Below, piece after piece: positions 22,103-59,414 of a stretch of DNA of 64,000 bases. A model generated the notes under the pieces. The model did no database searches. It was given only the letters and a program-made list of their open reading frames with translations, and was not told the origin of the DNA. Origin of the DNA: Eubacteriaceae bacterium ES3. GTDB taxonomy: Bacteria > Bacillota > Clostridia > Eubacteriales > Eubacteriaceae. The stretch's first letter is position 1, and each line of letters starts with the position of its first letter. The position numbers and the translations under genes were made by a program. Location of the stretch: positions 2,350,680 to 2,414,679 of the forward strand of contig CP130741.1 of assembly GCA_030586155.1 (NCBI GenBank). The letters run 5' to 3'.

Positions 22103-22103
22103 C

Positions 22104-26599: not shown

Positions 26600-27415
26600 T
26601 TAATTACAGACGCCATACAAAACCGCTTCTAAGACACTGCCTGCTATACACCTGGCTTTATCAGATATGGTGAAGCAATTTTTCAATTCCTCAGTTCGTG
26701 GATCGATATCAGCAATTTTAAAACCTTGTGTTACATTATATCCGTCACGAATTAAGCCACGGATAATGCCCGAAATTGAGGCTTCCACCGGATGAGCTCC
26801 ATCACTGTTTTCAATAATCGCGATTTCCTGGCCTTTTGTTACTGCATCACCGATGCTCTTAACATTTCTGATTAACCCCTGATGTGAAGCATGAATCACT
26901 CGATCGCTGGTATGGCCTGCAATGCTGCCTGGAATACCGGTATTGGCGATTGCTGTTCCCTTTCGAATGATACGACCAAGGTTATGTCCTCGCATAGTTT
27001 CAATCACCACATCTACATCTACACCTGCGGTAAAACCCGGTCCCAAAGCAATTGTCAAGGGTGCCATCTCATAATCTGTCCCCAGATTTTTTTTCGCCAG
27101 AATTGCGTCGACGACAACTTGAGGTTTTAGTCTGCTAATCCACAATCCCTGAGGATCAATAAGAACCGGAATATTTCTCTCAGACAAGGTTCTTTCGATT
27201 TCAGATGCAGTATCAACATGAATCGCCTTTACTCCTTCAATAGTCGCCTGTCCATCGTAAACAGCTTCAGAGAATGATACCTGCCGCCTGATAGCAGAAG
27301 GTTCTTCCACCTCCAGCACAACCACTTTAAAACCGCTGGAATGCAGTCTGTGAATCGTACCAGTAGCGATATCACCTCCGCCTCTAACAACTATTAAAAC
27401 ATCTTTTAGCTTCAT
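26600..27415 (-). CDS. yqeB: Selenium-dependent Mo hydroxylase system protein YqeB
   Basis: A 271-residue EF2563/YqeB-family protein. Seen: VVRGGGDIATGTIHRLHSSGF, a Rossmann-like nucleotide-binding start; IRRQVSFSEAVYDG; APLTIALGPGFTAGVDVDVVIETMRGHNLGR, the family core; and a biotinyl-lipoyl-like C-terminal half (ENSDGAHPVEASISGIIRGLIRDG). YqeB tracks with SelD in genomes that have selenium-dependent Mo hydroxylases and lack other selenium uses, so it is presumed to mature the Se-Mo cofactor. ATG 27415 follows AGGAGG; it is the last gene of the eleven-gene operon. Confidence 0.9.
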   Translation of the reverse strand: MKLKDVLIVVRGGGDIATGTIHRLHSSGFKVVVLEVEEPSAIRRQVSFSEAVYDGQATIEGVKAIHVDTASEIERTLSERNIPVLIDPQGLWISRLKPQVVVDAILAKKNLGTDYEMAPLTIALGPGFTAGVDVDVVIETMRGHNLGRIIRKGTAIANTGIPGSIAGHTSDRVIHASHQGLIRNVKSIGDAVTKGQEIAIIENSDGAHPVEASISGIIRGLIRDGYNVTQGFKIADIDPRTEELKNCFTISDKARCIAGSVLEAVLYGVCN

Positions 27416-27447
27416 GATCCCTCCTGACCACTTCAATCCACCTTCCG

Positions 27448-28632
27448 TTAAACGAGATATGCTTCCATAATACCCATGTAAGACTCAACGGCACCGGTCA
27501 ACTGACCAAGTTCGATGTACTCATCGATGGTATGAGCCAGTTTCTCATCAGACGGCCCCAAACCAATTGTCTCAATTCCCGCTTCTCCCGCATAATGGCT
27601 GCCGTTAGTGCAGAAGTTGTAATAGGTCACTTGCGGTTTGAAACCTTTGTCTTCAAGATGCTTTTTAACAGTCTGAACAGTTTCTGAATTTTCATCCATC
27701 AGCCATCCAGGAAAGAAACGCTCGCCTTTTATCTTTTCACCAGTATAGCAATCTTCTTCGCCAACAGCAAAAGAAACTTTGGCATCAACCTCTTTGTCTT
27801 CCGCGGACAGGGCATCAATCACAGCCTGAATGGGTGCCAGCACGCTTTCTTTGGTATCCCCAACCAGTAGTCGTCGGTCATAAGTTGCCTTGCAGTAAGA
27901 CGGTACAACCGATGCACCTGGATAAGGACTTGATTTGATATCAGTCAGTTCCAGAATCCCTTTGCCCAGAATCGGATGGACCGGTGCTTCGATTTCTCGG
28001 ATTGCCCCAATCACCTTAGCCATTGCATAGACCGCGTTTTTACCAGCCTCTGGACTGGCCGAATGGGCCGGTACACCAAATGTTTCCACAACCACTTCGC
28101 CTCGTCCCCGCTGTCCAATCTTTAGATTTAAGTTGGAAGCTTCGCCAATTACCACCAGGTCCGGCTGAACCGACTCACTCATCTTTCTGGCTGCGATTCC
28201 TTCAAAGCACTCTTCATGAACAATCCCTGCCACATATATTTCACCAGGAAATTGCTTCTGAGTCTTTTTAGCAAACTGAGCTGCCGCACTGGCCATAGCA
28301 GCAATAGCCCCTTTCATGTCCGAAGTTCCTCTTCCATACAGACGATCTTCCACTATTTCGCCAGCAAAAGGGTCCTTGCTCCAATCAGCCAGATCTCCAA
28401 CAGGCACCGTATCCATATGTCCATCGAAAAGGATTTTTTTCCCTGGTGCGTTTCCTTTTATAACACCATAAATGTTGCCATAGGCATCGACGACAGCATT
28501 ATCAAATCCGTTATCATTAAAAAAGTTCTCCAGGACACCAGCCACACCGCTTTCATTGCCTGAATAAGACTCCTGCCTAATCAGGTCCTGACAAAGTCCG
28601 ATCACCTGTGATTTCTGTTCTTCATTTAACAT
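27448..28632 (-). CDS. ygeY: YgeY-type M20-family amidohydrolase
   Basis: A 394-residue di-metal M20 peptidase/deacylase of the YgeY selenium-linked group. LFDGHMDTVPVGD holds the first metal ligands and catalytic aspartate; YGRGTSDMKGAIAAM supplies the bridging aspartate; AGIVHEECFEGIA carries the catalytic glutamate; GQRGRGEVVVETFGVPAHSA and TYYNFCTNGSHYAGEAGIETIGLGP follow. In purine clusters it probably cleaves an acyl or carbamoyl group from a ring-opened intermediate on the way to 2,3-diaminopropionate. The ATG at 28632 has AGGAGG upstream; ygeX ends 11 bases before it. Confidence 0.9.
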   Translation of the reverse strand: MLNEEQKSQVIGLCQDLIRQESYSGNESGVAGVLENFFNDNGFDNAVVDAYGNIYGVIKGNAPGKKILFDGHMDTVPVGDLADWSKDPFAGEIVEDRLYGRGTSDMKGAIAAMASAAAQFAKKTQKQFPGEIYVAGIVHEECFEGIAARKMSESVQPDLVVIGEASNLNLKIGQRGRGEVVVETFGVPAHSASPEAGKNAVYAMAKVIGAIREIEAPVHPILGKGILELTDIKSSPYPGASVVPSYCKATYDRRLLVGDTKESVLAPIQAVIDALSAEDKEVDAKVSFAVGEEDCYTGEKIKGERFFPGWLMDENSETVQTVKKHLEDKGFKPQVTYYNFCTNGSHYAGEAGIETIGLGPSDEKLAHTIDEYIELGQLTGAVESYMGIMEAYLV

Positions 28633-28643
28633 AGTATTCCTCC

Positions 28644-29840
28644 TTATGGTCTTGGATACAGACCGTCCCAAACGATACTGCGATAGTTGTCTTTGTCTGT
28701 ATCCCCTTCAGTGCTGATAAAAAGCAGTGAAGAGTTTTCATTAATACCAAGCTCTTCCTTAATACTTAAAAACTTGGGGTTGGTCAGAATCTCATAGGCT
28801 GCTCCCAAACCAGCGGCCCCACTCTCTCCTGACACGATCCTGCTATCATCGCCTTCCGGTGATGACAGGACACGCATTCCCTGAGCCGCAACATAGTCAT
28901 CGCAGGCAAGGTAATGATCAGCATAAGCTCTAAGAATATCGATACCTACCGTTACCGGCTCGCCACAAGCGAGACCAGCCATAATCGTATCCATATCACC
29001 ATCAACCACATGAATCTGGCCGTCATTGGCTTTCATCGTTTTATAGATACAAGCTGCTTCAGTTGGTTCCACAATAATGATTTGTGGTTTATCTTCACCA
29101 TAAACTGAAGCCAGGAATCCAGTTACCGCTGAGGCAAAAGATCCTACACCAGCTTGAAGAAAGACATGGGACGGCTTCTTACCGTCTAACTGCTGATAGA
29201 TTTCATATGCCAGGGTCATATAACCCTGGATGATGTGAGTTGGGATGGTTTCGTAACCTGGCCAGGAAGTGTCCTGAACCATAACCCAGCCATTGTCGTT
29301 GGCATTTTGACTAGCTAGTCTTACAGCATCATCATAATTCATATCGGTTATTGAAGCATCTGCCCCTTCGCTGCGAATGTTGTCCAACCGTTCCTGAGCA
29401 CTACCCTTTGGCATGTAAATCACACATTTTTGCTGCAACTGGTTGGCCGTCCAGGCCACCCCTCTACCATGGTTACCATCGGTAGCCGAAATGAAAGTCA
29501 GATCGCCCAGACGGTCTTTAACTTCACTGGAGATCATTCGTTCAAAACTCAAATTTTCGATTGGCTCACCCAGTTTTTCAGCAATATACTGGCCGATGGC
29601 GTAAGATCCGCCAAGCACCTTAAAAGCATTAAGACCGAAACGGTAGGATTCATCCTTAACATGGATTTCTCCCACACCAAGCTGACTGGCAAGGGATGAC
29701 AATTCCCTTAACGGGGTCTCCTCATAAGCCGGAAAAGTCCGATGATAACCGACGACTTTCTCCGCGACTTCCATACTGACATGGTCAAGCCCCGGTTTAT
29801 TATTTTTTTCATCACTGCGATGTACAATCTCTATAGACAT
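28644..29840 (-). CDS. ygeX: Diaminopropionate ammonia-lyase
   Basis: A 398-residue fold-type II PLP lyase converting 2,3-diaminopropionate to pyruvate and two ammonia via 2-aminoacrylate. HVKDESYRFGLNAFKVLGGSYA carries the PLP lysine; SATDGNHGRGVAWTANQL, VQDTSWPGYETIPTHIIQGY and LQAGVGSFASAVTGFLAS are family signatures, the last being the PLP phosphate site. The length matches E. coli YgeX/DpaL. It lies between the fused Mo hydroxylase and ygeY in one operon, and is the likely final carbon-releasing step of purine breakdown here. Confidence 0.95.
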   Translation of the reverse strand: MSIEIVHRSDEKNNKPGLDHVSMEVAEKVVGYHRTFPAYEETPLRELSSLASQLGVGEIHVKDESYRFGLNAFKVLGGSYAIGQYIAEKLGEPIENLSFERMISSEVKDRLGDLTFISATDGNHGRGVAWTANQLQQKCVIYMPKGSAQERLDNIRSEGADASITDMNYDDAVRLASQNANDNGWVMVQDTSWPGYETIPTHIIQGYMTLAYEIYQQLDGKKPSHVFLQAGVGSFASAVTGFLASVYGEDKPQIIIVEPTEAACIYKTMKANDGQIHVVDGDMDTIMAGLACGEPVTVGIDILRAYADHYLACDDYVAAQGMRVLSSPEGDDSRIVSGESGAAGLGAAYEILTNPKFLSIKEELGINENSSLLFISTEGDTDKDNYRSIVWDGLYPRP

Positions 29841-29870: not shown

Positions 29871-32633
29871 TTATTTCTGGTCATTCTTATTAAGACTTGC
29901 CAAAACCGCATCAGCAGTTACCGGCAGGTCATTATATTCTTTTTCCATCCCATTAGCCACCGCATTAACGATTGCGCTTAAGGATGGAACCACCGCACAC
30001 TCCCCAATACTCTTGCCGCCAAAGGGACCGGAAGCTTCATTCGAATTAATAAATCCGGCCTTGATATGAGGCATATCCATTGCTCTCGGAATCGTATAAT
30101 TTTTGAAATTCCGATTAGTGACCTTGCCCTGATTATCATAGATAATTCCCTCTGAAAGGGCCTGACCCATTCCCATCTGAATGCCGCCTTCTACCTGTCC
30201 TTCCAGACCCAGCGGATTCAGCGGCTTGCCCACATCATGAATTGCGACATATTTAAGAACTTTTATGGCTCCTGTCTGAGTATCGATTTGAACTTTTACA
30301 AAATGGGCCCCGTATGAAACGGCATTAGCTTCAGCTGAAAAGGTATCTGATTCGCAGATATCTTTGCCATGTTTTTCATGAGCATGGATAACCAGGTCAC
30401 CGATGCTGGCTTTCGTTTTAAAATCTCTAACACTAACTGCTTCGTTATTGATGAAGTCCACATCTTTAACCGGTATATCCAGATATTCTGCGGCATATTT
30501 TTCCAAAGTTTCTCGAACTTTGACCGCTGTTACTCGGGCAGCCTGGGCCGAAATATAGGTGCCACGACTGGCATAAGCGCCAACATCAAAGAGAGTCGTT
30601 TCCGTATCAGCTTCGTGACAGGCGATTCGATCCATTGTGATCCCTAAAACTTCAGAGATAGCCATGGCCTGGAGAGTACTGGAACCATTACCCATATCCG
30701 ATACACCGGTGAAGAATGTCGCCGAACCATCTTCATTCAGCTTGATCATAATGCCCGTTGTGTCAGCCATAACATTGAATAAGCCGTTGCCGTGGGCCCC
30801 GAGTGCCATTCCAACACCGATTCTATAACGGCCATTTTCCTGCTTGGATGCTGCCATTGTCGCCATTTCATCGGCCCATGAAAAATCTTCTTTTCCTTTT
30901 ATGACACAATCCTTTGCTCTGGCATTACCAACATTCATCACCCCATCAGATTCCAGATCCCATGGATCTACCAGGTTTAACAGCTGGAGATCTGTTATAT
31001 CCTTATTCAGCTCATGGGCAATCCGGTTAAGTTGCCGTTGTTGGGCGAAAAATCCCTGGGGCGAGCCAAACCCTCTCATCGCTGCCGCAACTGGTGTGTT
31101 GGTATAGACCGGCTGAGCATTAATCCGGATATTTTTATTCTTATGAACTTTTAGAAATTTACCGCTCATAGCCCAGGCAACGCTGGTGGAACAGCTGGTG
31201 TGGGCACCGGCATTAACAACGGCCTGGATATCCTGGGCGATAATACGTCCCTCTTCATCCACTCCAGTCTTAACTTTAACATCCATCGCATGGCGAATTC
31301 GTGATGAAGCAATGTCTTCCCGACGAGTATAAACCAGCTTGACCGGCTTCATCGCTTTCATCGAAAGCAGGGCTGCAACGGGCTCTGTCACCAGGTCCAC
31401 TTTGCCGCCGAAGCCGCCGCCAATAGCCGGTCGAATCACTCGGATCTTATTCATTGACATGCCGAAAATTCGCGACAGGTTGGAACGCTGTCCAAAGACA
31501 TCCTGGGTTGGTGTGTAGACCGTCAATTTACCGCTGATATCATATTGAGCAATTGAAACGTGGGGTTCCATGGCACTGTGATGAATCGGCTGCAGTGAAT
31601 AAGTATCTTCGAAGACATGGGACGCTTTGGCCATTTGACCATCCACATCACCAGTCTCAATAACCGCCGGGTCCAAACAATTACCAAAGTCATGTATCTG
31701 GTAAGCATCTTCCTTCATCGCTTCCTTGGGATCTAGATAATAAGGAAGCATTTCATACTCCACGTCAATCAGCTTGACCGCCGCTTCAGCAATCTCAATT
31801 GATGTTGCTGCAACGGCCGCTACCTTATCGCCAACGTAACGAACAATCTGATCAAAGACCAATTCGCTGGGACTGGCATCTTTATCCTCCGCATTACTGT
31901 TAAAGCGAACATCCGGAGAATCTTTGTAGCAAACAACTGCTTCAACACCCTCCAAAGCTTCTGCTTTACTGGTATCAATGCTGATGATTTTTGCATGGGG
32001 ATGGGGGCTGAAAAGCACCTTTGCATGAAGCATTCCTGGTAGTACAATATCCCCGGTATATTTAAGGCTCCCAGTTGCTTTAAGGTCTGCATCGATAACC
32101 GCTACCCCACGACCAATCGTACCTTTTGTCGATGCAGCTGTGACTGCTGCCTCCATGACCTGGTCCTCATGTCTCATCACTCTGGCTGCCTGCTGAATTG
32201 CTTTAACAACCTTGGCATAACCTGTACATCGACAAAGATTGCCATTAATCGCTTGCCGAATTTCATCTTCAGTGGGATCAGGATTCCGGTCAAGAAATGC
32301 CTTAATCACCATGATAATTCCCGGTGTACAGAAACCGCACTGAATAGCCCCATTGTCGATAAAAGCCTTTTGAATCGGATGCAGATCGGTGCCCTTTGAA
32401 AGACCTTCAATGGTTTCAACCGTTTTGTCTTTAACATTTTTGACGAGTGTTGTACATGATCTGACCGCTTCCCCATCCAGAATGACGGTACAGGCACCAC
32501 AATCTCCCGTGCTGCAGCCGCATTTGGTGCCAGTCAGTCCGACTACTTCTCTGATGACATACATCAGTGTCCAGTTTGGTTTTGCCAGAATCTGATGTTT
32601 TTTTCCGTTGATTGTCAGTATGTAACTTTCCAT
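29871..32633 (-). CDS. Fused [2Fe-2S]/molybdenum hydroxylase (XdhD-like)
   Basis: A 920-residue xanthine oxidase-family enzyme with two fused parts. Residues 1-155: plant-type [2Fe-2S] (GTKCGCSTGDCGACTV) and the second helical cluster (IQCGFCTPG...NLCRCTGY). Residues ~175-920: Mo-binding domains with GGGFGGK, RGFGSPQGFF and FGGKSIGECAVVP, whose glutamate is the catalytic base. The layout and length match E. coli XdhD, linked to purine hydroxylation. No FAD domain is present or encoded nearby. ATG 32633 is preferred over 32639 because AAGGAG is 7 bases away. Whether it acts on C2 or C8 cannot be read from sequence. Confidence 0.92.
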   Translation of the reverse strand: MESYILTINGKKHQILAKPNWTLMYVIREVVGLTGTKCGCSTGDCGACTVILDGEAVRSCTTLVKNVKDKTVETIEGLSKGTDLHPIQKAFIDNGAIQCGFCTPGIIMVIKAFLDRNPDPTEDEIRQAINGNLCRCTGYAKVVKAIQQAARVMRHEDQVMEAAVTAASTKGTIGRGVAVIDADLKATGSLKYTGDIVLPGMLHAKVLFSPHPHAKIISIDTSKAEALEGVEAVVCYKDSPDVRFNSNAEDKDASPSELVFDQIVRYVGDKVAAVAATSIEIAEAAVKLIDVEYEMLPYYLDPKEAMKEDAYQIHDFGNCLDPAVIETGDVDGQMAKASHVFEDTYSLQPIHHSAMEPHVSIAQYDISGKLTVYTPTQDVFGQRSNLSRIFGMSMNKIRVIRPAIGGGFGGKVDLVTEPVAALLSMKAMKPVKLVYTRREDIASSRIRHAMDVKVKTGVDEEGRIIAQDIQAVVNAGAHTSCSTSVAWAMSGKFLKVHKNKNIRINAQPVYTNTPVAAAMRGFGSPQGFFAQQRQLNRIAHELNKDITDLQLLNLVDPWDLESDGVMNVGNARAKDCVIKGKEDFSWADEMATMAASKQENGRYRIGVGMALGAHGNGLFNVMADTTGIMIKLNEDGSATFFTGVSDMGNGSSTLQAMAISEVLGITMDRIACHEADTETTLFDVGAYASRGTYISAQAARVTAVKVRETLEKYAAEYLDIPVKDVDFINNEAVSVRDFKTKASIGDLVIHAHEKHGKDICESDTFSAEANAVSYGAHFVKVQIDTQTGAIKVLKYVAIHDVGKPLNPLGLEGQVEGGIQMGMGQALSEGIIYDNQGKVTNRNFKNYTIPRAMDMPHIKAGFINSNEASGPFGGKSIGECAVVPSLSAIVNAVANGMEKEYNDLPVTADAVLASLNKNDQK

Positions 32634-32648
32634 ACTCATGCTCCTTAT

Positions 32649-33269
32649 CTACAGGGATTTACCCTGGCTCAACCAGGTCGCCGTTTTTGCCAGCCTGGTT
32701 CCCAAACCTTTTGCGTTATCTAGTCCAAAGGGATCATCCATCGTTGTCGAACCATCCCCTGGACTCCAAAGTGATGTTCCGGCGTAACCTGCACCACCGC
32801 TGTTGCAGACAGTGATTCCCTGGGTATGGTAGAAATTATGAATGGACTGAATGACCGCTTCCTGACCACCGTTTCTGGTGCCGCCAACAGACATGGCCGC
32901 ACCGGCTTTACGGATAAAGAAATCAGGCCTGGTCATACCAATACTCCATGATGAGCGAAAACGGCTGAAGAATGCAGCCAATTGCGGCGTATAGTTCATA
33001 TCATATACCGGTGAGATAATCAGAATCCCATCCGCTTCATAAAATTTATCGTAGAGCGGTGCCATATCATCTTCATAAACAGTACAACGATCCGCCTTAT
33101 CTTTTAAGCATTTGTTACAGTGGATACAGGGCGCAATTTTCTTTCCCTTTAATTCAACCAGTTCAGTTTCAACCCCCTGAATCTGAGCCGCACTTTCCAT
33201 TGCCGCAACCAGTGCCGTATAAGATGATTTCTTTCTTGGACTGGCGCATATTCCTAATATCTTTGTCAT
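32649..33269 (-). CDS. Iron-sulfur flavoprotein-like FMN reductase
   Basis: A 206-residue flavodoxin-fold protein. GICASPRKKSSYTALVAA is the FMN phosphate loop of the NADPH-dependent FMN reductase superfamily, and IISPVYDMNYTPQL lines the isoalloxazine. After the second strand lies C48-x2-C51-x2-C54-x7-C62 (CIHCNKC...C), the compact motif that binds [4Fe-4S] in Isf-type flavoproteins. It is placed between two Mo hydroxylases (9 and 32 base gaps), neither of which has an FAD subunit, so it is a good candidate for their one/two-electron exchange partner. NAD(P)H use is uncertain. Confidence 0.83.
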   Translation of the reverse strand: MTKILGICASPRKKSSYTALVAAMESAAQIQGVETELVELKGKKIAPCIHCNKCLKDKADRCTVYEDDMAPLYDKFYEADGILIISPVYDMNYTPQLAAFFSRFRSSWSIGMTRPDFFIRKAGAAMSVGGTRNGGQEAVIQSIHNFYHTQGITVCNSGGAGYAGTSLWSPGDGSTTMDDPFGLDNAKGLGTRLAKTATWLSQGKSL

Positions 33270-33301: not shown

Positions 33302-35560
33302 TTATTTTTTATTGAACACTGCCAGAATCCGTTCTTCATTGGCCGGCAGATCATTAATCTCATAACCGATAGCATTACTAACCGCATTAACCACAGCTGG
33401 TCCTGCCGGCACTACCGGCGATTCCCCCAGACTTTTGGCACCAAATGGTCCACCATCTTCGCCTTCTTCTATAAAGCCGAGCAGAAGCTCCGGCATCTGG
33501 CTGGCATTCATCATATTAAATCGCTTCAGCGTACTTGTCAAAGTCTTGCCTTTTTCATCAACCTTCATTCCTTCATACAAACCATATCCGATACCCATCT
33601 GGATACCACCTGCCAGCTGCCCTTCCAAAGCCATTGGATTCAAAGCTCTGCCAACATCATGAACAGCTGCGTATTTTAAAACTTGCGTTTTTCCAGTTTG
33701 AGTATCAACGCTTACCATGGCAATATGGAAGCCATAACTGTACGGACCGGAAGCTGCGGCATGAGTTTCCGAAACACAGATTTCCCGCATCGAGTTTTTC
33801 TGGCAGTTCTTCATGACTTCTTTGACCGAGACCTGTTTGTCCGGTTCAGAAATCAGACAAGCCATATTGTTGCTGATTTCGATATTGTCGGGAGTGGTTT
33901 GCAGCAGTTTCGCCGCTTCAATTTTTAATTCTTCTTTTAACTTAGAAGCTACTTTATAAGCTGCCTGACCAACAACAAAGACCCCGCGGCTGGCATAATC
34001 ACCAAGATGCCACAAGCAGGCATCGGTATCCGCTTCCACTGCATCGATTTTATCAAGGGAAAGGCCTGCCACTTCGGCGACAATCGCCATCTGAGCCCCA
34101 ACGTTGTCATTTCCCATATCATGGGCCCCGGTATAAAGGATAGCCGAACCGTCTTCGTTCATCTTAACCATTAGGGTGGTTACATCCCGATGAGCACCAA
34201 AACAACTGTTTCCATGAAGACCGGCCGCCATACCGACGCCAATTTTATATCGGTCATTACTTGACGCTTTTGCTTCAGCCAGCGCTTTTTCCAGACCAAA
34301 ATCAGCAATTGCTTTTTCCAGACAGTCCAGAGGTCTCGGATTGCCGATTGGTGACTTGAACTTGGGATCAAGGCTATCCGGTTTAACCAGGTTGCTTCGA
34401 TAAAGAGTCACCGGATCGATTCCCAGGGACATGCTGATTCTGTTCATCAATCGCTCAATCCCAAAGAAGGCCTGGGGACTACCATAACCTCGCATGGCAC
34501 CGGCAACCGGTGTATTGGTGTAGACTGTCCGCCCCTGAAAACGCATGTTCTCAACCTGATACAGTTTAAAAACTTTATGCGAGGAAGCACCCAGGACGTT
34601 CAAGGCACTGGAGGCATAGGCTCCGGTATTATGGGTCATATCCATGTCAACAGCTGTCAGCCGGCCTTCATTAGTAACCCCAATTCTGACTCTCGAACGG
34701 CTGGCGTGACGAACACGGGTTGAAATCATCGTTTCTCTTCGGTTGTAGACCAGCTTCACCGGTTTGCGGCACATTTTCGATAAAACAGCGGCCACCGGTT
34801 CCAGTGTTACTTCAAGCTTGCCGCCAAAACCACCGCCAATAGCCGGGCTGTTAATTCGTACTTTATTATAGGGCAGGTCAAACAGGTCCGAGAAAATGCA
34901 CCTGAAACCAAAGGAATTCTGGCAGGGTGTAAAGACCGTCAGCTTGTTGTCGTGGCGGTAATCCGCTATGGCAACGTGGGTTTCAATCGCCCCATGATGA
35001 ATAGCAGGAGTAGTAAAGGTTTCTTCAAAGATATGGTCTGCGGCCTTAAAGCCGGCTTCGATGTCACCGGCTTCGACGTCACTGGTTCCAACAATATTGC
35101 TGTCACCGTGGATTGGCACCGCCCCTTCCGCCATCGCTTCAAGAGAATCAAAAACAGCCGGCAGCTCTTCATATTCCACTTCAATCAGACCAATGGCTTT
35201 TGCTGCAATCTCCGCTGTATCTGCGGCAACAGCTGCAACCCGGTCACCGACAAAGCGAACCCTGTCATCAAAAATCCGTTCAGTTTTGGGGATATCATGT
35301 TCGATAAAACGAAGCGCGCTATTGTAACGCTTGTCCGGTGTGTTCATATGGGTGGCAATCGCTCTGACACCCTTTAATTGACTGGCTTTAGTCGTATCGA
35401 TGGAAATGATCTTTGCATGGGCATGGGGACTAAAGAGGACTTTTGCATAAAGCATACCCGGAAGCTTCATATCATCGACATAGACTTTACGTCCCGTGAC
35501 TTTAAGCGATGCGTCACGAATCGGTGTTCCTTTTCCCAGAACGTTGAATTTTTCCTCCAT
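33302..35560 (-). CDS. Molybdenum-binding subunit of a two-subunit purine hydroxylase
   Basis: A 752-residue xanthine dehydrogenase-family Mo subunit. The N-terminal a/b hammerhead domain (DASLKVTGRKVYVDDMKLPGML) is followed by Mo-binding motifs AIGGGFGGKLEV, AMRGYGSPQAFFGIERL, and GGPFGAKSLGESPVVPAG with the catalytic glutamate. It starts within the stop of the [2Fe-2S] subunit gene (TGATG), so the two are made together. In all key regions it is closest in layout to the other Mo proteins of this window, probably acting on another purine position. No FAD subunit gene follows. Confidence 0.92.
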   Translation of the reverse strand: MEEKFNVLGKGTPIRDASLKVTGRKVYVDDMKLPGMLYAKVLFSPHAHAKIISIDTTKASQLKGVRAIATHMNTPDKRYNSALRFIEHDIPKTERIFDDRVRFVGDRVAAVAADTAEIAAKAIGLIEVEYEELPAVFDSLEAMAEGAVPIHGDSNIVGTSDVEAGDIEAGFKAADHIFEETFTTPAIHHGAIETHVAIADYRHDNKLTVFTPCQNSFGFRCIFSDLFDLPYNKVRINSPAIGGGFGGKLEVTLEPVAAVLSKMCRKPVKLVYNRRETMISTRVRHASRSRVRIGVTNEGRLTAVDMDMTHNTGAYASSALNVLGASSHKVFKLYQVENMRFQGRTVYTNTPVAGAMRGYGSPQAFFGIERLMNRISMSLGIDPVTLYRSNLVKPDSLDPKFKSPIGNPRPLDCLEKAIADFGLEKALAEAKASSNDRYKIGVGMAAGLHGNSCFGAHRDVTTLMVKMNEDGSAILYTGAHDMGNDNVGAQMAIVAEVAGLSLDKIDAVEADTDACLWHLGDYASRGVFVVGQAAYKVASKLKEELKIEAAKLLQTTPDNIEISNNMACLISEPDKQVSVKEVMKNCQKNSMREICVSETHAAASGPYSYGFHIAMVSVDTQTGKTQVLKYAAVHDVGRALNPMALEGQLAGGIQMGIGYGLYEGMKVDEKGKTLTSTLKRFNMMNASQMPELLLGFIEEGEDGGPFGAKSLGESPVVPAGPAVVNAVSNAIGYEINDLPANEERILAVFNKK

Positions 35561-36033
35561 CAGTCTTCCTCCTGTAAAAGTCGCGATGCCAGCATAATAG
35601 CTTCAACGATTTTCTCATAACCTGTACAGCGACACAGATTACCATCAATAGCTTTACGGATTTCTTCTTCGGTGGGAATCGGATTTCTATCAAGTAAAGC
35701 TTTGGCCGAAATAATCATTCCAGGTGTGCAGTATCCGCACTGGACGGCGCCTGCTTCAATAAAGGCCATCTGTATGGGATGCAGGACTTCACCGCTTGAA
35801 AAGCCTTCAATGGTCATGATTTGTGCACCATCTGCTTTTTTACCCTTTATTAAACAGGACTTTTGTGCACCACCGTTAAACAGCACCATACAGGCGCCGC
35901 AATCGCCAGTTGAGCATCCACATTTGGTACCGGTCAGGCCGATGACTTCTCGCAGGATGTGGAGTAATGTCCAGTTTTTCTCGATATCCAGTTCATAAGC
36001 GTCCCCATTCACCGTCATTTTGATTGTTTCCAT
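35560..36033 (-). CDS. [2Fe-2S] subunit of purine hydroxylase
   Basis: A 157-residue ferredoxin subunit of the xanthine dehydrogenase family. The plant-type cluster is GTKCGCSTGDCGACMV plus a following cysteine (QKSCLIKG); the helical second cluster is VQCGYCTPG and NLCRCTGYEKIVEAI. It transfers electrons from the Mo centre in the subunit encoded next, with which it shares a one-base stop/start overlap. The start likewise overlaps the stop of the dipeptidase gene (TAATG). Confidence 0.94.
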   Translation of the reverse strand: METIKMTVNGDAYELDIEKNWTLLHILREVIGLTGTKCGCSTGDCGACMVLFNGGAQKSCLIKGKKADGAQIMTIEGFSSGEVLHPIQMAFIEAGAVQCGYCTPGMIISAKALLDRNPIPTEEEIRKAIDGNLCRCTGYEKIVEAIMLASRLLQEED

Positions 36034-36923: not shown

Positions 36924-36927
36924 AACG

Positions 36928-51803: not shown

Positions 51804-51899
51804 TTGTCTCCTTATATATGTCCCATTTGATAGAAACACCTGTCTTCATTATTTAGCGTCTAGTTTCCTAAATCACAAAATAACCATTAATCCACGACT

Positions 51900-51938: not shown

Positions 51939-51997
51939 ATCTTAGCGCTTATATATGGAAAGACCTTTTTCCTTTGCAAATAATATCCTGCTGCAGT

Positions 51998-52657: not shown

Positions 52658-52688
52658 AATTGTCCTCCAATTATTATGTCAATTTATT

Positions 52689-52717
52689 TTATCAAAGCAA
52701 TAAAATATTAATATCAA
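52689..52717 (-). promoter_or_regulatory. Promoter of regulator copy 2 with dyad over the -10
   Basis: TTGATA (52712-52717), a 17-base spacer and TGATAA (52689-52694); the shared motif TTATTGCTTTGATAA covers 52689-52703. Geometry is identical to that at 26488-26516. Confidence 0.7.
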
Positions 52718-52777: not shown

Positions 52778-53254
52778 TTAGTCCCAAAAGCCTCTATGAA
52801 CTTCTGCGATTGACTCCTCCAGTTCCTTGAACGGCCCAGTCACTTGAATGTCTTTTTGGCCGGCAGCCAGAATGGTCCGGCAAGGCATATTAAAGGTTGG
52901 ATTGACTTCATTGTTACCCGTCATCTTCAGCAGGTCCGATTCTTCCATACCGTACACGATAGCACCGATATTGGCCCAGTAAATAGCCCCAGTGCACATG
53001 GCGCATGGTTCAACCGTCGTATACAGGGTACACTCTGCCAAAAATTCCTTACTGTAAAGCTGGGAAGCCTTTTCTGCCAATGCTGTTTCAGCATGGCCGG
53101 TGCAACGGTGTTCAGTCAGTTCAACATTACCCTGACGCAAAAGAATATTCCCATCTTTATCTGCCAGCAATGCACCAAATGGTGTGTTTCCAGATTCCCT
53201 GGCTTTTTTCGAAACTTCAATTGCTTCTTCCAGATATTTAACATGCTTATTCAT
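52778..53254 (-). CDS. CDA-fold nucleobase deaminase (guanine deaminase/TadA-like)
   Basis: A 158-residue cytidine-deaminase-fold enzyme. GNTPFGALLADKDG, CTGHAETALAEKA (zinc histidine and catalytic glutamate) and TTVEPCAMCTGAIYWANIGAIVYGM (zinc cysteines PCxxC) are intact. It resembles the small guanine deaminase GuaD of Bacillus (GAIYWA) more than the tRNA deaminase TadA, which normally has other flanks. As last gene of a purine importer operon, guanine to xanthine deamination is the best guess. It lies 5 bases after the upstream amidohydrolase. Confidence 0.82.
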   Translation of the reverse strand: MNKHVKYLEEAIEVSKKARESGNTPFGALLADKDGNILLRQGNVELTEHRCTGHAETALAEKASQLYSKEFLAECTLYTTVEPCAMCTGAIYWANIGAIVYGMEESDLLKMTGNNEVNPTFNMPCRTILAAGQKDIQVTGPFKELEESIAEVHRGFWD

Positions 53255-53259: not shown

Positions 53260-54675
53260 TTACACCTCTAACTCAATTGTTTTCCATTCATGGCCTTCTC
53301 TACGGTTTGTAATCCCTGCGCGAAGTGCCAAATCGTCTGCTGTTGCCTGTGCTTTTCTGTAAGCGGCTTCTTCATCAATACCACCGGTAAACTTGCTGTT
53401 ATGCAGTATTAACCGACCATCAACCGCAACACTTTCGATATTATCCATACCCGAAGAATAAACCAGAGTTGAAACAGGGTTGTGAACCGGTATCGCCTTG
53501 GGATTTAAATACGGATTAAAGATAATATAGTCAGCCTTTTTACCTGCTTCCAGAGAGCCTATTTCATTTTCCATTCCCAGGGCCTTGGCGCCGTCAATGG
53601 TTGCCATTTCAAGTACCTTTTCAGCGGTCATCGCCGTTGGGTCCAGGTTATGGACTTTTTGAAGCAGAGAGGCCGACTTCATCAATTCAATCATATCCTG
53701 GGAGTTATTGCTGGCCGCTCCATCAACGCCCAGACTAACCGTCACGCCAGATCGAATCATCTGTGGAACTGGTGCCACCCCAGATGACAAATACATATTA
53801 CTGACGGCATTATAAGAAACCTTGAAATCATAAGCCGCTGCTTTCCGAATATCTTCTTCTGTCAGATAAACACAGTGCACCATCAGTACATTAGATCCGG
53901 TAATGCCCAGTTTTTCTAGGCAATCCACCCCCGCAACACCGTGAAGGGCTTCTGTCGCCATCCGATCAAAAGGTGTCTCAGACACATGAACTGTCAAACC
54001 CGACTTATAGGCATTAGTCACTTCATAGAGCATTTTAAACATTTCTTCTGAGTTTGACCAAAGGGCAGCCGGTGCTGTCCAAACCTTGATTCTGCCATCT
54101 TCGGTGTTATGGTAGGTATCAAACAAACGTACCAGATCTTTTTCGACCGTTTTCACGTCCTGAGTAATCTCCTGGCAAACACCGAAATCCAAACCGGCAT
54201 TCATGGTTCCCCTGCCAAAAACACCACGGATTTTTAAATCTTTAAAGGCCTGGATTACGCCGTCACTCAAACCTTCTGATGCATGGGGGTACATATAGTC
54301 AAGGGATGTGGTAATCCCGCTGCGGACGGATTCCATACTTCCCAGAAGAGCAGCCTGGTAACAGTCCTCCGGTGTCAGAAAGCGGGCGGCCGGAAAGGTC
54401 ATCGTCGCTAACCAGTCCTTTAGATCCATATCATCGCCGAGCCCCTTTAAAAGCGTCTGAAAAAGGTGGGTATGGGTATTGATAAAACCGGGAAAGATAA
54501 TTTTGCCATCACAGTCTATGACCTCTTTAACTTCTGAATACTTTTTTTCAAGGATTTCAGACGGTCCAACTTCGACAATTTTCCCCTGAGCGACAGCCAT
54601 CGCCCCTTTGTACCAGATTTTTCTGTCACTGTCTACTGTGACAATAATCGCATTTATAAGTAATTGATCTAACAT
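53260..54675 (-). CDS. Amidohydrolase-family deaminase (TrzA/MtaD/8-oxoguanine deaminase-like)
   Basis: A 471-residue metal-dependent deaminase. FPGFINTHTHLFQTLLKGLGDD (HxH), SGITTSLDYMYPHASEG, LTVHVSETPFDRM (metal histidine), VLMVHCVYL and VSLGVDGAASNNSQDM (aspartate) are conserved. It is related to the 8-oxoguanine deaminase-like protein at 43116, but the DHH of that protein is DYM here, pointing to a different substrate. It starts in the stop of the ABC ATPase gene (TAATG), so it is made together with the importer. An imported amino-purine or cytosine-like base is the likely substrate. Confidence 0.82.
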   Translation of the reverse strand: MLDQLLINAIIVTVDSDRKIWYKGAMAVAQGKIVEVGPSEILEKKYSEVKEVIDCDGKIIFPGFINTHTHLFQTLLKGLGDDMDLKDWLATMTFPAARFLTPEDCYQAALLGSMESVRSGITTSLDYMYPHASEGLSDGVIQAFKDLKIRGVFGRGTMNAGLDFGVCQEITQDVKTVEKDLVRLFDTYHNTEDGRIKVWTAPAALWSNSEEMFKMLYEVTNAYKSGLTVHVSETPFDRMATEALHGVAGVDCLEKLGITGSNVLMVHCVYLTEEDIRKAAAYDFKVSYNAVSNMYLSSGVAPVPQMIRSGVTVSLGVDGAASNNSQDMIELMKSASLLQKVHNLDPTAMTAEKVLEMATIDGAKALGMENEIGSLEAGKKADYIIFNPYLNPKAIPVHNPVSTLVYSSGMDNIESVAVDGRLILHNSKFTGGIDEEAAYRKAQATADDLALRAGITNRREGHEWKTIELEV

Positions 54676-56207
54676 TATGCCTCCATCTCTTCACTCTCAC
54701 AAAGTCCTGCCATCAGGCATCCGATTCTTTCGATTGTCGCGCTCTTTCTATCCATTTCTCCCAGAATCTGACCATCATACATGACGCCAATCCTGTCGCT
54801 AAGGGCCATGATTTCATCCAATTCTGTTGAAACCAGTAAAACCGCACAGCCTCTGTTTTTAGCCTCGATGATCTCTTTATGTATAAACTCTATCGCTCCA
54901 ATATCAACGCCCCGCGTCGGGTGTACTGCCAAAAGCAGGTCCGGATTTTTTTCCAGTTCTCTGGCAATGACCACCTTTTGCTGGTTACCGCCAGAAAGGC
55001 TTTCCATCGGCGCCCAGATATCCGGCGTTTTGACATTATATTTGGCAATTCGTTCTTCTGTCCGCTGCTGATGCAAAGGCCAGTTGATAAAAGGTCCTTT
55101 TTTGTATTCTTTTTTTCCAATATCGTGGAGAATCATGTTTTCCAGTATGCTCTTGCTCATCAGGACACCATCTGCCTGACGATCTTCTGGTATATGCGAA
55201 ACACCACACTCAAGAATATCGTTAGGCTTCTTATTGGTCATATCCCGGCCATTAATCTTAACACTTCCAGATGCCGCCTTGTCCAGAGCACTGATTGCTT
55301 TGATCAGTTCCGTCTGACCATTGCCATCAACTCCAGCAATACCATAGATCTCGCCGGCTCGGACTTTCAGGTTCAAGTTCTTGACTACTAAATTATGGCG
55401 TTTACCTTTTACAGTCAGGTCATTCACAACCAGCCGATCTTCCCCCGGCTCCCGATCATGCTCATTGACCACAAAGGCCACCTCTTTACCCACCATCAAA
55501 GCCGCCAGTTCTTTCTGACTGGTTGCTTCTTTATCACGTTCAGCTACTAACCGGCCGTTTCTCAAAACACTAATTTTCTCACTGATTTTCATAACCTCAT
55601 TCAGCTTGTGACTGATAAAGATTACAGACTTGTCTTCAGACTTAAGTTGATGAATGATTTCAAACAGCTGTTCTGTTTCTCTCGGTGTCAATACTGCTGT
55701 CGGCTCATCCAATATCAGCAAATTACAATCGGTATAGACAGCCTTGATGATTTCAACGCGCTGCTGCTGGCCAACTGTCAAATCTGCAACAAGCATGTTC
55801 GGATCAATTTCCAACTGATATTTCTCGGAAATTTCTTTAATCCTCTTAATAACATTTGCCTTGTCCAGCAATAAGCCTTTCTGATCAACCATTGATAAAA
55901 TAATGTTCTCAGCAACGGTCAGTGTCGAAATCAGCATGAAGTGCTGATGGACCATCCCTATGCCGTTTTTAATTGCGTCTTTAGGAGAATTGATCTCCAC
56001 TTCCCTGCCATTGATGATAATAGCACCAGAGTCCTGTTTAATAATCCCGAAGATAATATTCATCAGGGTACTTTTACCGGCACCATTTTCCCCCAGTAAA
56101 GCATGAATCTGACCTTTCTCCAGAGAAAAGCTTATTTCATCATTTGCTTTTAAATCATTAAATGATTTTGTTATTTTTTTGAGTTCAAGTAAGGCATCCA
56201 TGGCCAT
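54675..56207 (-). CDS. Nucleoside/nucleobase ABC importer ATPase (YufO-like)
   Basis: A 510-residue tandem ABC ATPase of the sugar/nucleoside type. First domain: Walker A GENGAGKST, Q-loop GMVHQHFML, signature LTVGQQQRVEI, Walker B LLILDEPTAVLT. Second domain: degenerate Walker A GVDGNGQTEL, signature LSGGNQQKVVIARE, and LLAVHPTRGVDIGA. This asymmetry is normal in the family (YufO/NupO). It energises the permeases at 57456 and 58328 and probably the orphan pair at 40930-42875. The start follows GGAAGGAAA. Confidence 0.94.
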   Translation of the reverse strand: MAMDALLELKKITKSFNDLKANDEISFSLEKGQIHALLGENGAGKSTLMNIIFGIIKQDSGAIIINGREVEINSPKDAIKNGIGMVHQHFMLISTLTVAENIILSMVDQKGLLLDKANVIKRIKEISEKYQLEIDPNMLVADLTVGQQQRVEIIKAVYTDCNLLILDEPTAVLTPRETEQLFEIIHQLKSEDKSVIFISHKLNEVMKISEKISVLRNGRLVAERDKEATSQKELAALMVGKEVAFVVNEHDREPGEDRLVVNDLTVKGKRHNLVVKNLNLKVRAGEIYGIAGVDGNGQTELIKAISALDKAASGSVKINGRDMTNKKPNDILECGVSHIPEDRQADGVLMSKSILENMILHDIGKKEYKKGPFINWPLHQQRTEERIAKYNVKTPDIWAPMESLSGGNQQKVVIARELEKNPDLLLAVHPTRGVDIGAIEFIHKEIIEAKNRGCAVLLVSTELDEIMALSDRIGVMYDGQILGEMDRKSATIERIGCLMAGLCESEEMEA

Positions 56208-56242
56208 TTTCCTTCCTTAATTCAGCCCTTTATTGATTTAAT

Positions 56243-56273
56243 CCAGGTATATCGGATTGTCCGATATACCTGG
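56243..56273 (-). other. Perfect mid-operon hairpin between bmpA and the ATPase gene
   Basis: A perfect 14-bp stem CCAGGTATATCGGA with a 3-base loop lies in the 145-base gap after bmpA. No T run follows. Such a hairpin usually protects the upstream mRNA 3' end and gives the binding protein higher expression than the ATPase. Confidence 0.75.
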
Positions 56274-56352
56274 AAAACCATCATCGGGGTTATGGTAATA
56301 ATCTACTTTTATACGGCTATCTGTTATGATGAGCCTTCTTTTCCTGCTGTTC

Positions 56353-57360
56353 TTAGTTAGCCTGTGCGCTTTCGATTTCGATTTCGCCAGCTGCGATTTT
56401 ATCCATTGTATCAGTCACAAACTGTTTTTCATCATCTGTCAGCACATCTTCACAGTCATGGTAAGGAGCCAGGCCAATAACGCCTTCAGCAATACCGAAG
56501 TGGTAAACTTTAGCTTCTAATGGTCCATTCATGGCTTCTTTAACAGCCGCTACCATACCCAGACTAATCTGGTTGGTCGCACTGGTGAGTGTCTGTTCCG
56601 GATTTTCTTCATACTGGTCTTTAACTGCTCCAATAGCGTAAACGCCTTCGTGGCCTTTAACTGCTTCAAAGACACCCAGACCTGCCTGGTCCGCATCATG
56701 AGCGATAATGTCCGCACCATCTTCGATGAATACTACTGCCTGATCTTTAAGCTTGGCTGCATCGTCAAAATCGCCAGTAAAAGCAGTCAGAGCAACAGTT
56801 CCATTATCAACATAGGCAACACCCTGTTCAAAACCTGTTATATAGCTTTGGATTGATGGAATCTCCATCCCACCGATAGCTCCAACTTTTCCTGTTTCTG
56901 TCGCTAATGCCGCTACTACACCGGCAATGAATCCCTGCTGATCATTCAGATTCAGCACACCTGCTACATTGGGTTCCTGAACTACGTCAGAACTGGTGAT
57001 TAAAAACATTGTATCCAAATAGTCTGGGGCAACATTTTTGGCTGCATCGGCAAATTCAGAACCATGTCCGAAAATGATATTGTAACCCTGATCAGCATAG
57101 CCGCGGAATACAGTTTCATAATCAGAAGCAGCTACCGCTTCAGAATAAGCGACTTCACATCCCAGTTCCTCAATCTCCATCAATCCGTCATAGGCTTCAT
57201 TGTTCCAGCCCTTATCATTAGCTGTTCCCGGCAGCAGCAGAGCTACCTTTAAAGTATCACCTGTTGCAGCATCACCTTCAGTATCGCTCGAGCTCTGACA
57301 TCCGGCAAATAAGGTTACCGTCATCATCAGGGCAAGCATTAACACAAGTACTTTTTTCAT
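56353..57360 (-). CDS. BmpA/Med-family nucleoside-binding lipoprotein
   Basis: A 335-residue substrate-binding lipoprotein. The signal peptide KVLVLMLALMMTVTLFAGC ends in a lipobox (LFAGC, Cys20 lipidated), followed by a serine/aspartate linker. KVALLLPGTANDKGWNNEAYDGL starts the mature BmpA/Med domain; IIFGHGSEFADAAKNVAPDY and IIAHDADQAGLGVFEA follow, as in purine nucleoside receptors of this family. It is third in the importer operon, flanked by mid-operon hairpins on both sides, in line with a need for excess receptor. Confidence 0.93.
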   Translation of the reverse strand: MKKVLVLMLALMMTVTLFAGCQSSSDTEGDAATGDTLKVALLLPGTANDKGWNNEAYDGLMEIEELGCEVAYSEAVAASDYETVFRGYADQGYNIIFGHGSEFADAAKNVAPDYLDTMFLITSSDVVQEPNVAGVLNLNDQQGFIAGVVAALATETGKVGAIGGMEIPSIQSYITGFEQGVAYVDNGTVALTAFTGDFDDAAKLKDQAVVFIEDGADIIAHDADQAGLGVFEAVKGHEGVYAIGAVKDQYEENPEQTLTSATNQISLGMVAAVKEAMNGPLEAKVYHFGIAEGVIGLAPYHDCEDVLTDDEKQFVTDTMDKIAAGEIEIESAQAN

Positions 57361-57404
57361 TTCTTCTTCCTCCTGTTTATAACATTCTTTTTAAATTTAT
57401 AGAT

Positions 57405-57427
57405 AAAAGGAATCCCGGGTTCCTTTT
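57405..57427 (-). other. Mid-operon hairpin between permease and bmpA
   Basis: AAAAGGAA / TTCCTTTT stem around a GC-rich 7-base loop in the 95-base permease-bmpA gap. A partial terminator or processing site; no long T run. Confidence 0.6.
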
Positions 57428-57455
57428 ATACTTGACGTGATTTATTTTAAAGCTG

Positions 57456-58331
57456 TCATTTACCCTTGGTAAATGGTACTCCCAGGGCACTGGGATCGCC
57501 TGATTTCTGGCCAAAGACCGAAACCATGACAATGGTCAGCACATAGGGAATCATTAAAAGCAGCTGGGTTGGTATGTCACTGCCAAAGGACTGAATCCTG
57601 AACTGCATGGCCTCTCCCGCACCAAAGAGCAGGACCGCCAGCAAAGCACCCACAGGGGTGTATCTGCCGAAAATAACCGCTGCCAGGGCAATAAAGCCAC
57701 GGCCGCTGACCATATTTTCGGTGAAAAAAGACAACAGACCCAGTGACAGATAGGCGCCGCCCGCTCCAATAAACATCGAGCCGCCAATGGTACTCAGGTA
57801 TCGGATTTTTTCAACACTGAGACCCACAGAATCAATCGCCGCCGGATATTCACCGGTTGCTCTGACTCTCAGCCCCGGTCTGGTCTTGTACAGAAACAGA
57901 CTCAGCAGGATAACCGCCAGAATCGTCAGGTACACCGGCAGGGTAAAACCGCCGCCAATCTCTGTAAATCCTGCCACCTTCATCGACCCTTCCTTCATCC
58001 CGAACAGGGTCCGGTAGAGGGTCGTCGTCAGGCCTTCAGCAATGATATTCAGGGCAATCCCCACCACCACCTGATTGGCTTTGATTCCCACCGTCAGCCA
58101 GGCAAAAAGCAGGCCGACCACTGCGCTGACACCCAGAGCAAAGAGCATTCCCAGCCACACATTGCCAAACAGATAGGACCCGACCACACCGGAAAAGGCA
58201 CCAATCAGCATCATCCCTTCCGCTCCGATATTTATCACACCGGCCAGGTGCATGATCAGAATCCCCATTGCCGCCAGAAGAATCGGCGTTGATGTATTTA
58301 TTACAGTTGTCAGGAAACTTAATAGATTCAC
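57456..58331 (-). CDS. Nucleoside/nucleobase ABC permease, YufQ-like (copy 2)
   Basis: A 291-residue permease, differing from the copy at 40930 by very few residues (for example SALGVPFTKGK against CALGVPFSKGK at the C-terminus). Helix and coupling-loop motifs are the same. This copy lies in a complete importer operon: permease, permease, bmpA, ATPase, two deaminases. The GTG start overlaps the upstream permease stop by 4 bases. Confidence 0.94.
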   Translation of the reverse strand: MNLLSFLTTVINTSTPILLAAMGILIMHLAGVINIGAEGMMLIGAFSGVVGSYLFGNVWLGMLFALGVSAVVGLLFAWLTVGIKANQVVVGIALNIIAEGLTTTLYRTLFGMKEGSMKVAGFTEIGGGFTLPVYLTILAVILLSLFLYKTRPGLRVRATGEYPAAIDSVGLSVEKIRYLSTIGGSMFIGAGGAYLSLGLLSFFTENMVSGRGFIALAAVIFGRYTPVGALLAVLLFGAGEAMQFRIQSFGSDIPTQLLLMIPYVLTIVMVSVFGQKSGDPSALGVPFTKGK

Positions 58332-59414
58332 TGGGATACTTCCTTTCTTTCCAATAGCTTTCTTAAACCCTCAGGCTTTTTGAAGCTGAATGGCTTGAAC
58401 TGATCCACCACCACAAATATGATAACCAGTCCCTGGATGATATAGATGACGGCAATCGGCAGTCGGGTGAACATCTGAACCGCGTTTCCGCCGCTTCTAA
58501 GAGCACCGAACAGAATCGAGGAGAAGAAAATTCCGATGGCACTGCTGTTGCCCAGAAGAGCTACCGCAATCCCGTCAAAACCGTATCCGGCCGACAGACC
58601 TTCCAGCAGTTTATGCTGAACGCCCAGCACTTCCATGCTGCCCGCCAGGCCACCGATTCCGCCCGAAATAACCATCGCCATCAGCACCATCCGTTTTACC
58701 GGAATCCCCACATATTCAGCGGCGTCTTTGTTGGTTCCCACTGTTGCCATTCTGAATCCCTGGGGGGTATATTTCCAGTAGATATAATAGACCACCAGGG
58801 CCGCCAGAGCAATGAATAATCCAATCGTCAGCTGGCTGTTGGGAATCAGCTTAATCAGCTTGGCACTGTCCATGATGATGTCCGACTGGGGATAGGTCGC
58901 CTTTTCTTCCATCATCGGTCCGTTGACCAGGGCTGATACGATATACACTGCCACATAGTTCATCATTACTGTGGTGATCATTTCGCTGGCATTAAAACGG
59001 TTCTTTAAAAATCCGACGATTCCTCCCCAGAAGGCGCCTCCGATAAAACCTGCCAGGAGTGCCAGCGGCACATGCAGCACCATCGGCAGATCCATATAGA
59101 CCGCGACATATGTGGAAAACAAAGCTCCCATGTAAAGCTGGCCTTCGATCCCGATATTGACCAGGCCGCACTTATAGGCAAATCCATAGGCCAGACCGAC
59201 AAAAATCAGCGTTGTTGCTTTGACCAGTGTTGCCGCAATGGCCATTTTTGAACCAAAGGCCCCCTGCCACATGACCTGATAAACTTCCACCGGATTCTGC
59301 TGAATCAGAGCGATGATGAGTGCTCCGAATATCAGCGCAAATACAATGGATAAGAGGGGTTTTATTATATTTGTTTGCAGTTTCATTGATGCCTCCTGAG
59401 TATGGTTCAATCTT
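57458..59414. repeat. Segmental duplication of the permease pair, copy 2
   Basis: Counterpart of 40932-42903. The 15-base length difference is wholly explained by the tandem unit lost or gained near the end of the first permease gene. Near-identity including synonymous positions suggests a recent duplication or ongoing gene conversion. Confidence 0.93.
58328..59386 (-). CDS. Nucleoside/nucleobase ABC permease, YufP-like (copy 2)
   Basis: A 352-residue permease, first gene of the importer operon. It is nearly identical to the copy at 41802 apart from a few substitutions and the lack of the five-residue C-terminal tandem unit. ATG 59386 with CAGGAGG is chosen as in copy 1; an open frame extends 32 codons further upstream across the leader but has no matching counterpart in copy 1 and is not used. 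Confidence 0.93.
   Translation of the reverse strand: MKLQTNIIKPLLSIVFALIFGALIIALIQQNPVEVYQVMWQGAFGSKMAIAATLVKATTLIFVGLAYGFAYKCGLVNIGIEGQLYMGALFSTYVAVYMDLPMVLHVPLALLAGFIGGAFWGGIVGFLKNRFNASEMITTVMMNYVAVYIVSALVNGPMMEEKATYPQSDIIMDSAKLIKLIPNSQLTIGLFIALAALVVYYIYWKYTPQGFRMATVGTNKDAAEYVGIPVKRMVLMAMVISGGIGGLAGSMEVLGVQHKLLEGLSAGYGFDGIAVALLGNSSAIGIFFSSILFGALRSGGNAVQMFTRLPIAVIYIIQGLVIIFVVVDQFKPFSFKKPEGLRKLLERKEVSQ

Follow-up and report, generated by a model that had tools for sequence, protein, structure and literature searches.

A probable reductive purine-degradation locus of two joined modules in Eubacteriaceae bacterium ES3

The window considered here is a 64,000-nucleotide stretch (2350680–2414679) of the single-contig, 3,392,449-base genome of Eubacteriaceae bacterium ES3, and its subject is a purine-catabolic block whose bounds, in window coordinates, are better set at 25159–59482. 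All genes of the block lie on the minus strand, and they adjoin a seven-gene operon for a selenium-molybdenum (Se-Mo) cofactor. The block consists of two joined modules. Module B comprises YgfK, SsnA1, a selenium-dependent xanthine dehydrogenase (Se-XDH) and UacY, while module A runs from HyuA, SsnA2 and UacX2 to YgeX and YgeY; the two are adjacent, with a single HyuA, YgeX and YgeY between them. Judged from sequence, the block probably equips an anaerobe for reductive purine degradation, in which urate would be broken down via module B, module A would supply a parallel reductive route, both would share the final steps from diaminopropionate to pyruvate, and the reductions would be driven by ferredoxin or flavodoxin. 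The reductive urate pathway is already known (PMC12507026), and gut bacteria that possess it lower host urate. What is new is the joining of two modules, the distinct UacX2-SsnA2 pair, the losses of FAD modules, and the occurrence of A and B as separate loci elsewhere.

The urate module and the predicted pathway

In the pathway as assayed, XdhD converts urate to yanthine, dearomatisation by YgfK is coupled to SsnA to give ureidomethyl-hydantoin, and HyuA, YgeW or UacY, YgeY and YgeX then lead to pyruvate (PMC12507026). In Clostridioides difficile, UacX is used in place of YgfK and UacY in place of YgeW (PMC12507026). The corresponding partners are encoded in the window. SsnA1 (46289–47632) scores 559 bits against TIGR03314 (cut-off 455.5), the hydantoinase HyuA (39398–40783) 498.6 bits against TIGR02033 (cut-off 393), the ureido-group hydrolase YgeY (27448–28671) 484.8 bits against NF009555 (cut-off 321), with 63–64% identity to C. 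difficile-type YgeY, and the 2,3-diaminopropionate ammonia-lyase YgeX (28644–29840) 609.7 bits against TIGR03528 (cut-off 532). The reductase position is filled twice, by a short YgfK (44683–46332) beside SsnA1 and by UacX2 (36928–38061) beside SsnA2 (38065–39384). In the position of YgeW or UacY stands UacY, a D-aminoacylase-type 2-ureido hydrolase (50196–51839; PF07969; 58–63% to UacY of C. difficile-type clusters). No YgeW was found in the genome, where its relatives score just 35 bits (cut-off 500), and the block itself contains no YgeW, carbamate kinase, XdhD or FAD subunit.

Down the minus strand, the block begins with the permeases of a BMP-type ATP-binding cassette (ABC) importer (57456–59482), followed by its binding protein and ATPase (54675–57360; related in the PDB to proteins of the BMP/TmpC and atrazine-binding type), a TRZ/ATZ-type deaminase (53260–54675; 57–64% to relatives in Clostridioides module A clusters), a CDA/TadA-fold deaminase that is possibly guanine-deaminase-like (52778–53254; PF00383; 63% to a relative in the cluster of genome G362), and a YheO-type regulator (51998–52657). 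Next come UacY, the Se-XDH with fused FeS and Mo domains (47641–50193; TIGR03311, 1364.7 bits, cut-off 830), SsnA1, the short YgfK, an 8-oxoguanine deaminase-family gene (43116–44543; NF006055, 589 bits, cut-off 532) and a second permease pair (40930–42899). Operon A then follows, with 11 genes unbroken and gaps of at most 32 bases. From HyuA it passes through SsnA2, UacX2, an M19 renal-dipeptidase-type hydrolase (36033–36935; PF01244, 217.8 bits), XdhC2 (35560–36033), XdhA2 (33302–35560), a flavodoxin-fold FMN reductase-like protein (32649–33269; PF03358), XdhAC1 (29871–32639), YgeX and YgeY to YqeB, a selenium-cofactor maturation protein (26600–27436; TIGR03309, 363 bits, cut-off 220). A second YheO-type regulator, RidA and the Se-Mo cofactor operon complete the series.

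By its gene content module B is the canonical urate set, and the following route is predicted. The BMP-type importer would bring in purines or nucleosides, which deaminases and Mo hydroxylases would convert to urate; the 8-oxoguanine deaminase-family enzyme would also feed urate. By homology to enzymes assayed elsewhere, the Se-XDH, a candidate urate-to-yanthine reductase, would take off the 6-oxo group of urate to give 2,8-dioxopurine (yanthine), the short YgfK would reduce the yanthine ring, and SsnA1 would open it by hydrolysis. HyuA would then open the hydantoin, UacY and YgeY would remove the two ureido groups, and YgeX, with RidA, would turn 2,3-diaminopropionate into pyruvate and ammonia.

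The cluster is closest in its partner list to those of the C. difficile type (PMC12507026), with which it shares YgeX, YgeY, UacY, SsnA, HyuA, a fused Se-XDH and the lack of an FAD subunit; it differs in having the short YgfK in the place of the reductase and in its joined second module, with UacX2-SsnA2, two more Mo hydroxylases and the M19 hydrolase. With the E. coli ygeW-ygfK/xdhD cluster it has in common YgeX (54% identical), HyuA, SsnA, the N-terminal domain of YgfK (42%), YqeB, YqeC and MocA. In contrast to that cluster, however, it lacks YgeW, the neighbouring YqeA, XdhD and YgfM, its YgfK is without the FAD/NADPH module, and YgeW is replaced by UacY.

An initial annotation of the window had named most of these families, and all were found in place with scores far beyond chance (YgeX, YgeY, YqeB, HyuA, SsnA, Se-XDH and the 8-oxoguanine deaminase over curated cut-offs); chance or mis-annotation as the source of the block is thus ruled out. 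Its three Mo hydroxylases were also borne out, as two fused proteins (29871–32639 and 47641–50193) and one split protein (33302–36033). Its full route to urate, diaminopropionate, pyruvate and ammonia fits the homologies, each step having a biochemically tested relative (PMC12507026), while the physiology is predicted. The BMP-type importer it had described as purine-type is present (54675–59482, with the second permease pair), its specificity for purines being presumptive. In contrast, the set had been misread as larger than that of E. coli: the supposedly extra D-aminoacylase and PreA-like reductase are relatives of UacY and UacX, which in C. difficile stand in for YgeW and YgfK, and the synteny comparison that was called for, with E. 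coli ygeW-ygfK and gut Clostridia, gives a partner list of the C. difficile type and not of the E. coli type. Overlooked altogether were the two paralogous ring-opening modules (UacX2-SsnA2 and YgfK-SsnA1), the loss of the NAD(P)H module from YgfK, and the absence of an FAD subunit from the genome.

A second ring-opening pair

UacX2 and SsnA2 each belong to a clade of their own. In trees of UacX, the UacX1 clade (support 98/97) and its sister clade UacX2 (99/96) are separated, and the protein of the window falls outside UacX1; the C. difficile UacX assayed in the literature is assigned to UacX1 from the description of its cluster. Trees of SsnA likewise give an SsnA1 clade of 27 rows, E. coli SsnA among them (100/100), and an SsnA2 clade of 16 rows (100/100). 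The clades of the two proteins are congruent, and partners were never exchanged among the loci read. SsnA1 proteins score 559–641 bits against the SsnA family, whereas SsnA2 proteins reach 218–256 bits (229 bits in the window) and lie below the cut-off of 455.5, so that a survey by this family misses SsnA2.

The active sites differ as well. In SsnA2, Gln257 replaces a conserved active-site histidine (His265 of SsnA1, shared with the TRZ, 8-oxoguanine and guanine deaminases) in all 16 sequences, whereas HxH, His220, Glu223 and Asp308 of the metal site are unchanged. In UacX2, the loop that carries the catalytic Cys671 of dihydropyrimidine dehydrogenase (DPD) is missing, the Asn609 and Glu611 positions are conserved, and Asp185 stands, in 18 of 18 sequences, where DPD has Asn736 and all UacX1 have Asn. 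The catalytic and contact roles of these DPD and amidohydrolase residues are in part general background; a literature search found nothing on DPD active-site residues or on C. difficile SsnA2 gene numbers. By sequence comparison, the changes in both proteins suggest another substrate.

A scan of one genome per species, with whole-genome checks of the carriers for SsnA1, placed UacX2 in 16 loci, each with SsnA2 adjoining. The carriers are C. difficile-type strains, Metaclostridioides mangenotii, C. ultunense, Cult1, Tissierella sp. P1, Maledivibacter and Anaerolineae. Canonical SsnA1 is also encoded in the genomes of G329, M. mangenotii, C. difficile 173070, Maledivibacter and Anaerolineae, and is absent from those of C. 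ultunense, Cult1 and Tissierella P1, where module A occurs alone. Module A lies apart from module B in G329, C. difficile-type strains and M. mangenotii. For instance, G329 has one cluster (module B) with the order YgeX-YgeY-UacY-SsnA1-UacX1-HyuA-SeXDH, and another (module A) with TRZ deaminases, XdhC2-XdhA2-FMN reductase, YgeX, YgeY, HyuA, XdhC-FAD-XdhA, SsnA2, UacX2, a further FAD-XdhA pair and YqeC-MocA-MoCF. Module B of M. mangenotii reads YgeX-YgeY-UacY-SsnA1-YgfK(short)-permease-HyuA-SeXDH, and that of C. difficile is ordered almost identically, with UacX1 as the reductase.

The C. difficile genes xdhA1–xdhA4 lie beside yqeC, with a fused xdhA5 elsewhere (PMC11448449). The arrangement of G329 is very probably that of C. 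difficile, since its four Mo-hydroxylase sets match xdhA1–xdhA4 in subunit pattern and likewise have yqeC as a neighbour. As read in G329, this locus (PMC11448449) resembles module A of the window in SsnA2-UacX2, YgeX, YgeY, HyuA, TRZ deaminases, XdhA2/C2 and the FMN-reductase-like protein; it differs in that the Xdh next to SsnA2 has an FAD subunit, which none in the window has, and module B is physically adjacent only in the window. In C. difficile-type genomes (L044–L047 of G329; L065, L066), a transposase-like open reading frame (ORF), TnpB type by eye, separates yqeC from the last Xdh pair. In Tissierella sp. P1 (L070), the module A genes XdhC, XdhA and HyuA each appear as two adjacent frames, which suggests frameshifts or assembly errors.

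The substrate of module A

The changed active sites, together with the coexistence of module A with module B, make a different purine a somewhat likelier substrate than redundancy alone would suggest. It is tentatively proposed that UacX2-SsnA2 dearomatises and opens the ring in a second reductive purine pathway, acting on a purine other than yanthine (derived, for example, from hypoxanthine or an amino-purine), and that the pair has been missed as SsnA2 lies outside curated SsnA. UacX2-SsnA2 would then perform the same kind of reduce-and-open step and feed the same lower pathway. If the second module does consume another purine, surveys that rely on SsnA (IPR017700) as a marker underestimate the number of purine-degrading bacteria and overlook a substrate.

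Mutation of selD or yqeB in C. difficile abolishes growth on urate, reduces it on xanthine and leaves it intact on hypoxanthine (PMC11448449). Module A would fit a selenium-independent route and could underlie this growth, in which case UacX2-SsnA2 would be a concrete gene pair for it. Hypoxanthine as the substrate is a guess, and the growth reported (PMC11448449) could be plain purine salvage that spares glycine. Of note is that YqeB is encoded in operon A itself, and near module A in C. ultunense and Tissierella, which weighs against a selenium-independent route.

Alternatively, there may be a single urate pathway with redundant enzymes, in which UacX2-SsnA2 performs the yanthine reaction of YgfK-SsnA1 and two clusters acquired at different times have merged. 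This is possible, and likewise to be held tentatively. SsnA1 is lacking in C. ultunense, Cult1 and Tissierella P1, all of which have module A, and the C. ultunense module, which carries YgeX, YgeY, UacY, HyuA and Xdh, resembles a complete urate cluster. UacX2 was found in only one of 19 genomes of the genus, that of the window, and the G+C content over 28–44 kb is 44–49% against 37–43% to the left; the two observations together point to acquisition of the module A region. Redundancy is less easily squared with the retention of both modules in Clostridioides, Metaclostridioides, Maledivibacter and Anaerolineae, or with the replacement of the catalytic His and the substrate-contact Asn in every member.

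A further possibility is that module A serves pyrimidine degradation, with UacX2 as a PydAc-like uracil reductase and HyuA as a dihydropyrimidinase. DPD is the nearest solved structure to UacX2, and it was the best match for the predicted folds of both the short YgfK and UacX2, which are moderate models (mean predicted local distance difference test scores of 73 and 65) from an alignment built of the collected loci; PydAc, moreover, is FAD-less like UacX2. Yet UacX2 falls outside the DPD/PydAc group by its missing Cys671 loop and its Asp at Asn736, its sister clade is UacX1, and its operon encodes YgeX, YgeY, SsnA2 and Mo hydroxylases, none of which is required for the breakdown of uracil. This reading is therefore improbable, and pyrimidine catabolism was rejected as the principal interpretation on the absence of the loop and the operon context.

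Electron supply

The short YgfK scores 547 bits against TIGR03315 (cut-off 835) and covers positions 1–427 and about 885–991 of the profile, with about 430–880 absent. Its FMN-type catalytic domain is joined straight to the C-terminal ferredoxin domain, some 430 residues with the FAD/NADPH module being gone. The YgfK-type reductase of the initial annotation is thus a partial YgfK, outside the full-length equivalog, which may still work like the catalytic part of YgfK. Short forms are also encoded in G010, G014, G328, G102, G310 and M. mangenotii, and full-length YgfK in G022, G025, G146 and others; the tree splits the short members (two changes by parsimony), with a single clade not rejected by the approximately unbiased test (p 0.35). 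The NCBIfam name of TIGR03315 and its SelD-linked distribution (PMC2276186) would make YgfK a selenate reductase and the block a selenium supply, which is highly implausible given the in vitro conversion of yanthine by E. coli YgfK and SsnA (PMC12507026) and the purine-catabolic nature of the remaining operon genes.

The Mo hydroxylases show a comparable loss. No protein with FAD_binding_5 (PF00941) was found in the whole genome, so none of the three has the usual FAD subunit. XdhAC1, with fused 2Fe-2S and Mo domains (NF043082 and TIGR03311 domains), and the split XdhA2-XdhC2 enzyme are sisters (XdhAC1 and XdhA2 are 46% identical), and the pair looks like a duplication with gene fusion.

PydAc, from which the same domains have been lost, relies on reduced ferredoxin (PMC7332683). 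Like UacX2 and the short YgfK, it combines an FMN barrel with ferredoxin domains (2x[4Fe-4S] in UacX2) and has no FAD/NADPH domain; unlike PydAc, the proteins of the window stand in a purine operon, with different pocket residues and no Cys671 loop. Ferredoxin is the likeliest donor on the strength of this precedent, the lack of an FAD/NADPH domain in YgfK and UacX2, and the lack of an FAD subunit in the genome. By analogy, the pathway is probably driven by reduced ferredoxin or a flavodoxin-like protein and not directly by NAD(P)H; a YgfK that naturally lacks the FAD module would couple the degradation of purines to the anaerobic ferredoxin pool. A second candidate donor, for the FAD-less Mo hydroxylase, is the FMN-reductase-like protein encoded beside XdhA2. 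Its position is kept as XdhC2-XdhA2-FMN_red in G329 and L062 and as XdhA2-FMN_red in L063, and also in M. mangenotii.

Several points weigh against the reading of the block as a ferredoxin-driven locus with two reductive routes. NAD(P)H could enter via the FMN-reductase-like protein or an unlinked partner. Modules A and B share HyuA, YgeX and YgeY in this genome, which is compatible with one pathway of redundant enzymes. The literature search yielded no report of growth on purines for the genus. Finally, E606 of E. coli XdhD, the proposed yanthine-forming residue, lies in an insert that is absent from all three Mo hydroxylases. As a marker of yanthine-forming enzymes E606 proved uninformative; the insert occurs only in E. 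coli XdhD and two other clusters.

Selenium cofactor genes, regulation and neighbouring genes

SelD, YqeB and YqeC are encoded in one genome near Mo hydroxylases, the pattern of the Se-dependent Mo hydroxylase trait with its SelD-linked distribution (PMC2276186); labile selenium in the enzyme is predicted. The description of the block as selenium-linked holds to this extent, with only one of the three Mo hydroxylases in the curated Se-dependent XDH family. The adjoining Se-Mo cofactor operon (19372–24974) was confirmed to have seven genes, encoding an SclA/EF2568-like Cys-desulfurase, SelD, YedF, MocA, a MoCF-domain protein and YqeC, with NCBIfam matches over or near cut-off; the seventh is an 87-aa ORF (21839–22102). 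RidA, an enamine/imine deaminase (25159–25557; TIGR00004, 176 bits), likely clears 2-aminoacrylate formed by YgeX, and also adjoins the clusters of G014, G022, G106, G280, G412, G415 and G417. The M19 hydrolase is present only in the cluster of the window, with no match in the others compared; an intermediate of ureido or peptide-like type is a possible substrate.

The two YheO-type PAS/HTH regulators (copy 1 at 25788–26456, PF08348 and PF13309) are 83% identical proteins in the stretches 25783–26516 and 51993–52717. Each half of the block ends with one of them, and they are likely purine sensors. A direct repeat of 2.2 kb with 95.8% DNA identity (40919–43118 and 57445–59611) spans in each copy a BMP-type permease pair and its leader; both permease pairs are nearly identical and the duplication is recent. 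Both leaders carry a promoter-like site in which the -10 element is extended. In copy 1 (42970–43075), a long hairpin and U-run follow before the first permease gene, and copy 2 (about 59465–59570) has nearly the same sequence. The hairpin and U-run are possibly an attenuator and fall in no Rfam family; Rfam searches gave no match to a purine or other riboswitch. Between the block and dnaJ/dnaK lies a gene for a subtilisin/mycosin-like protease (59738–61828).

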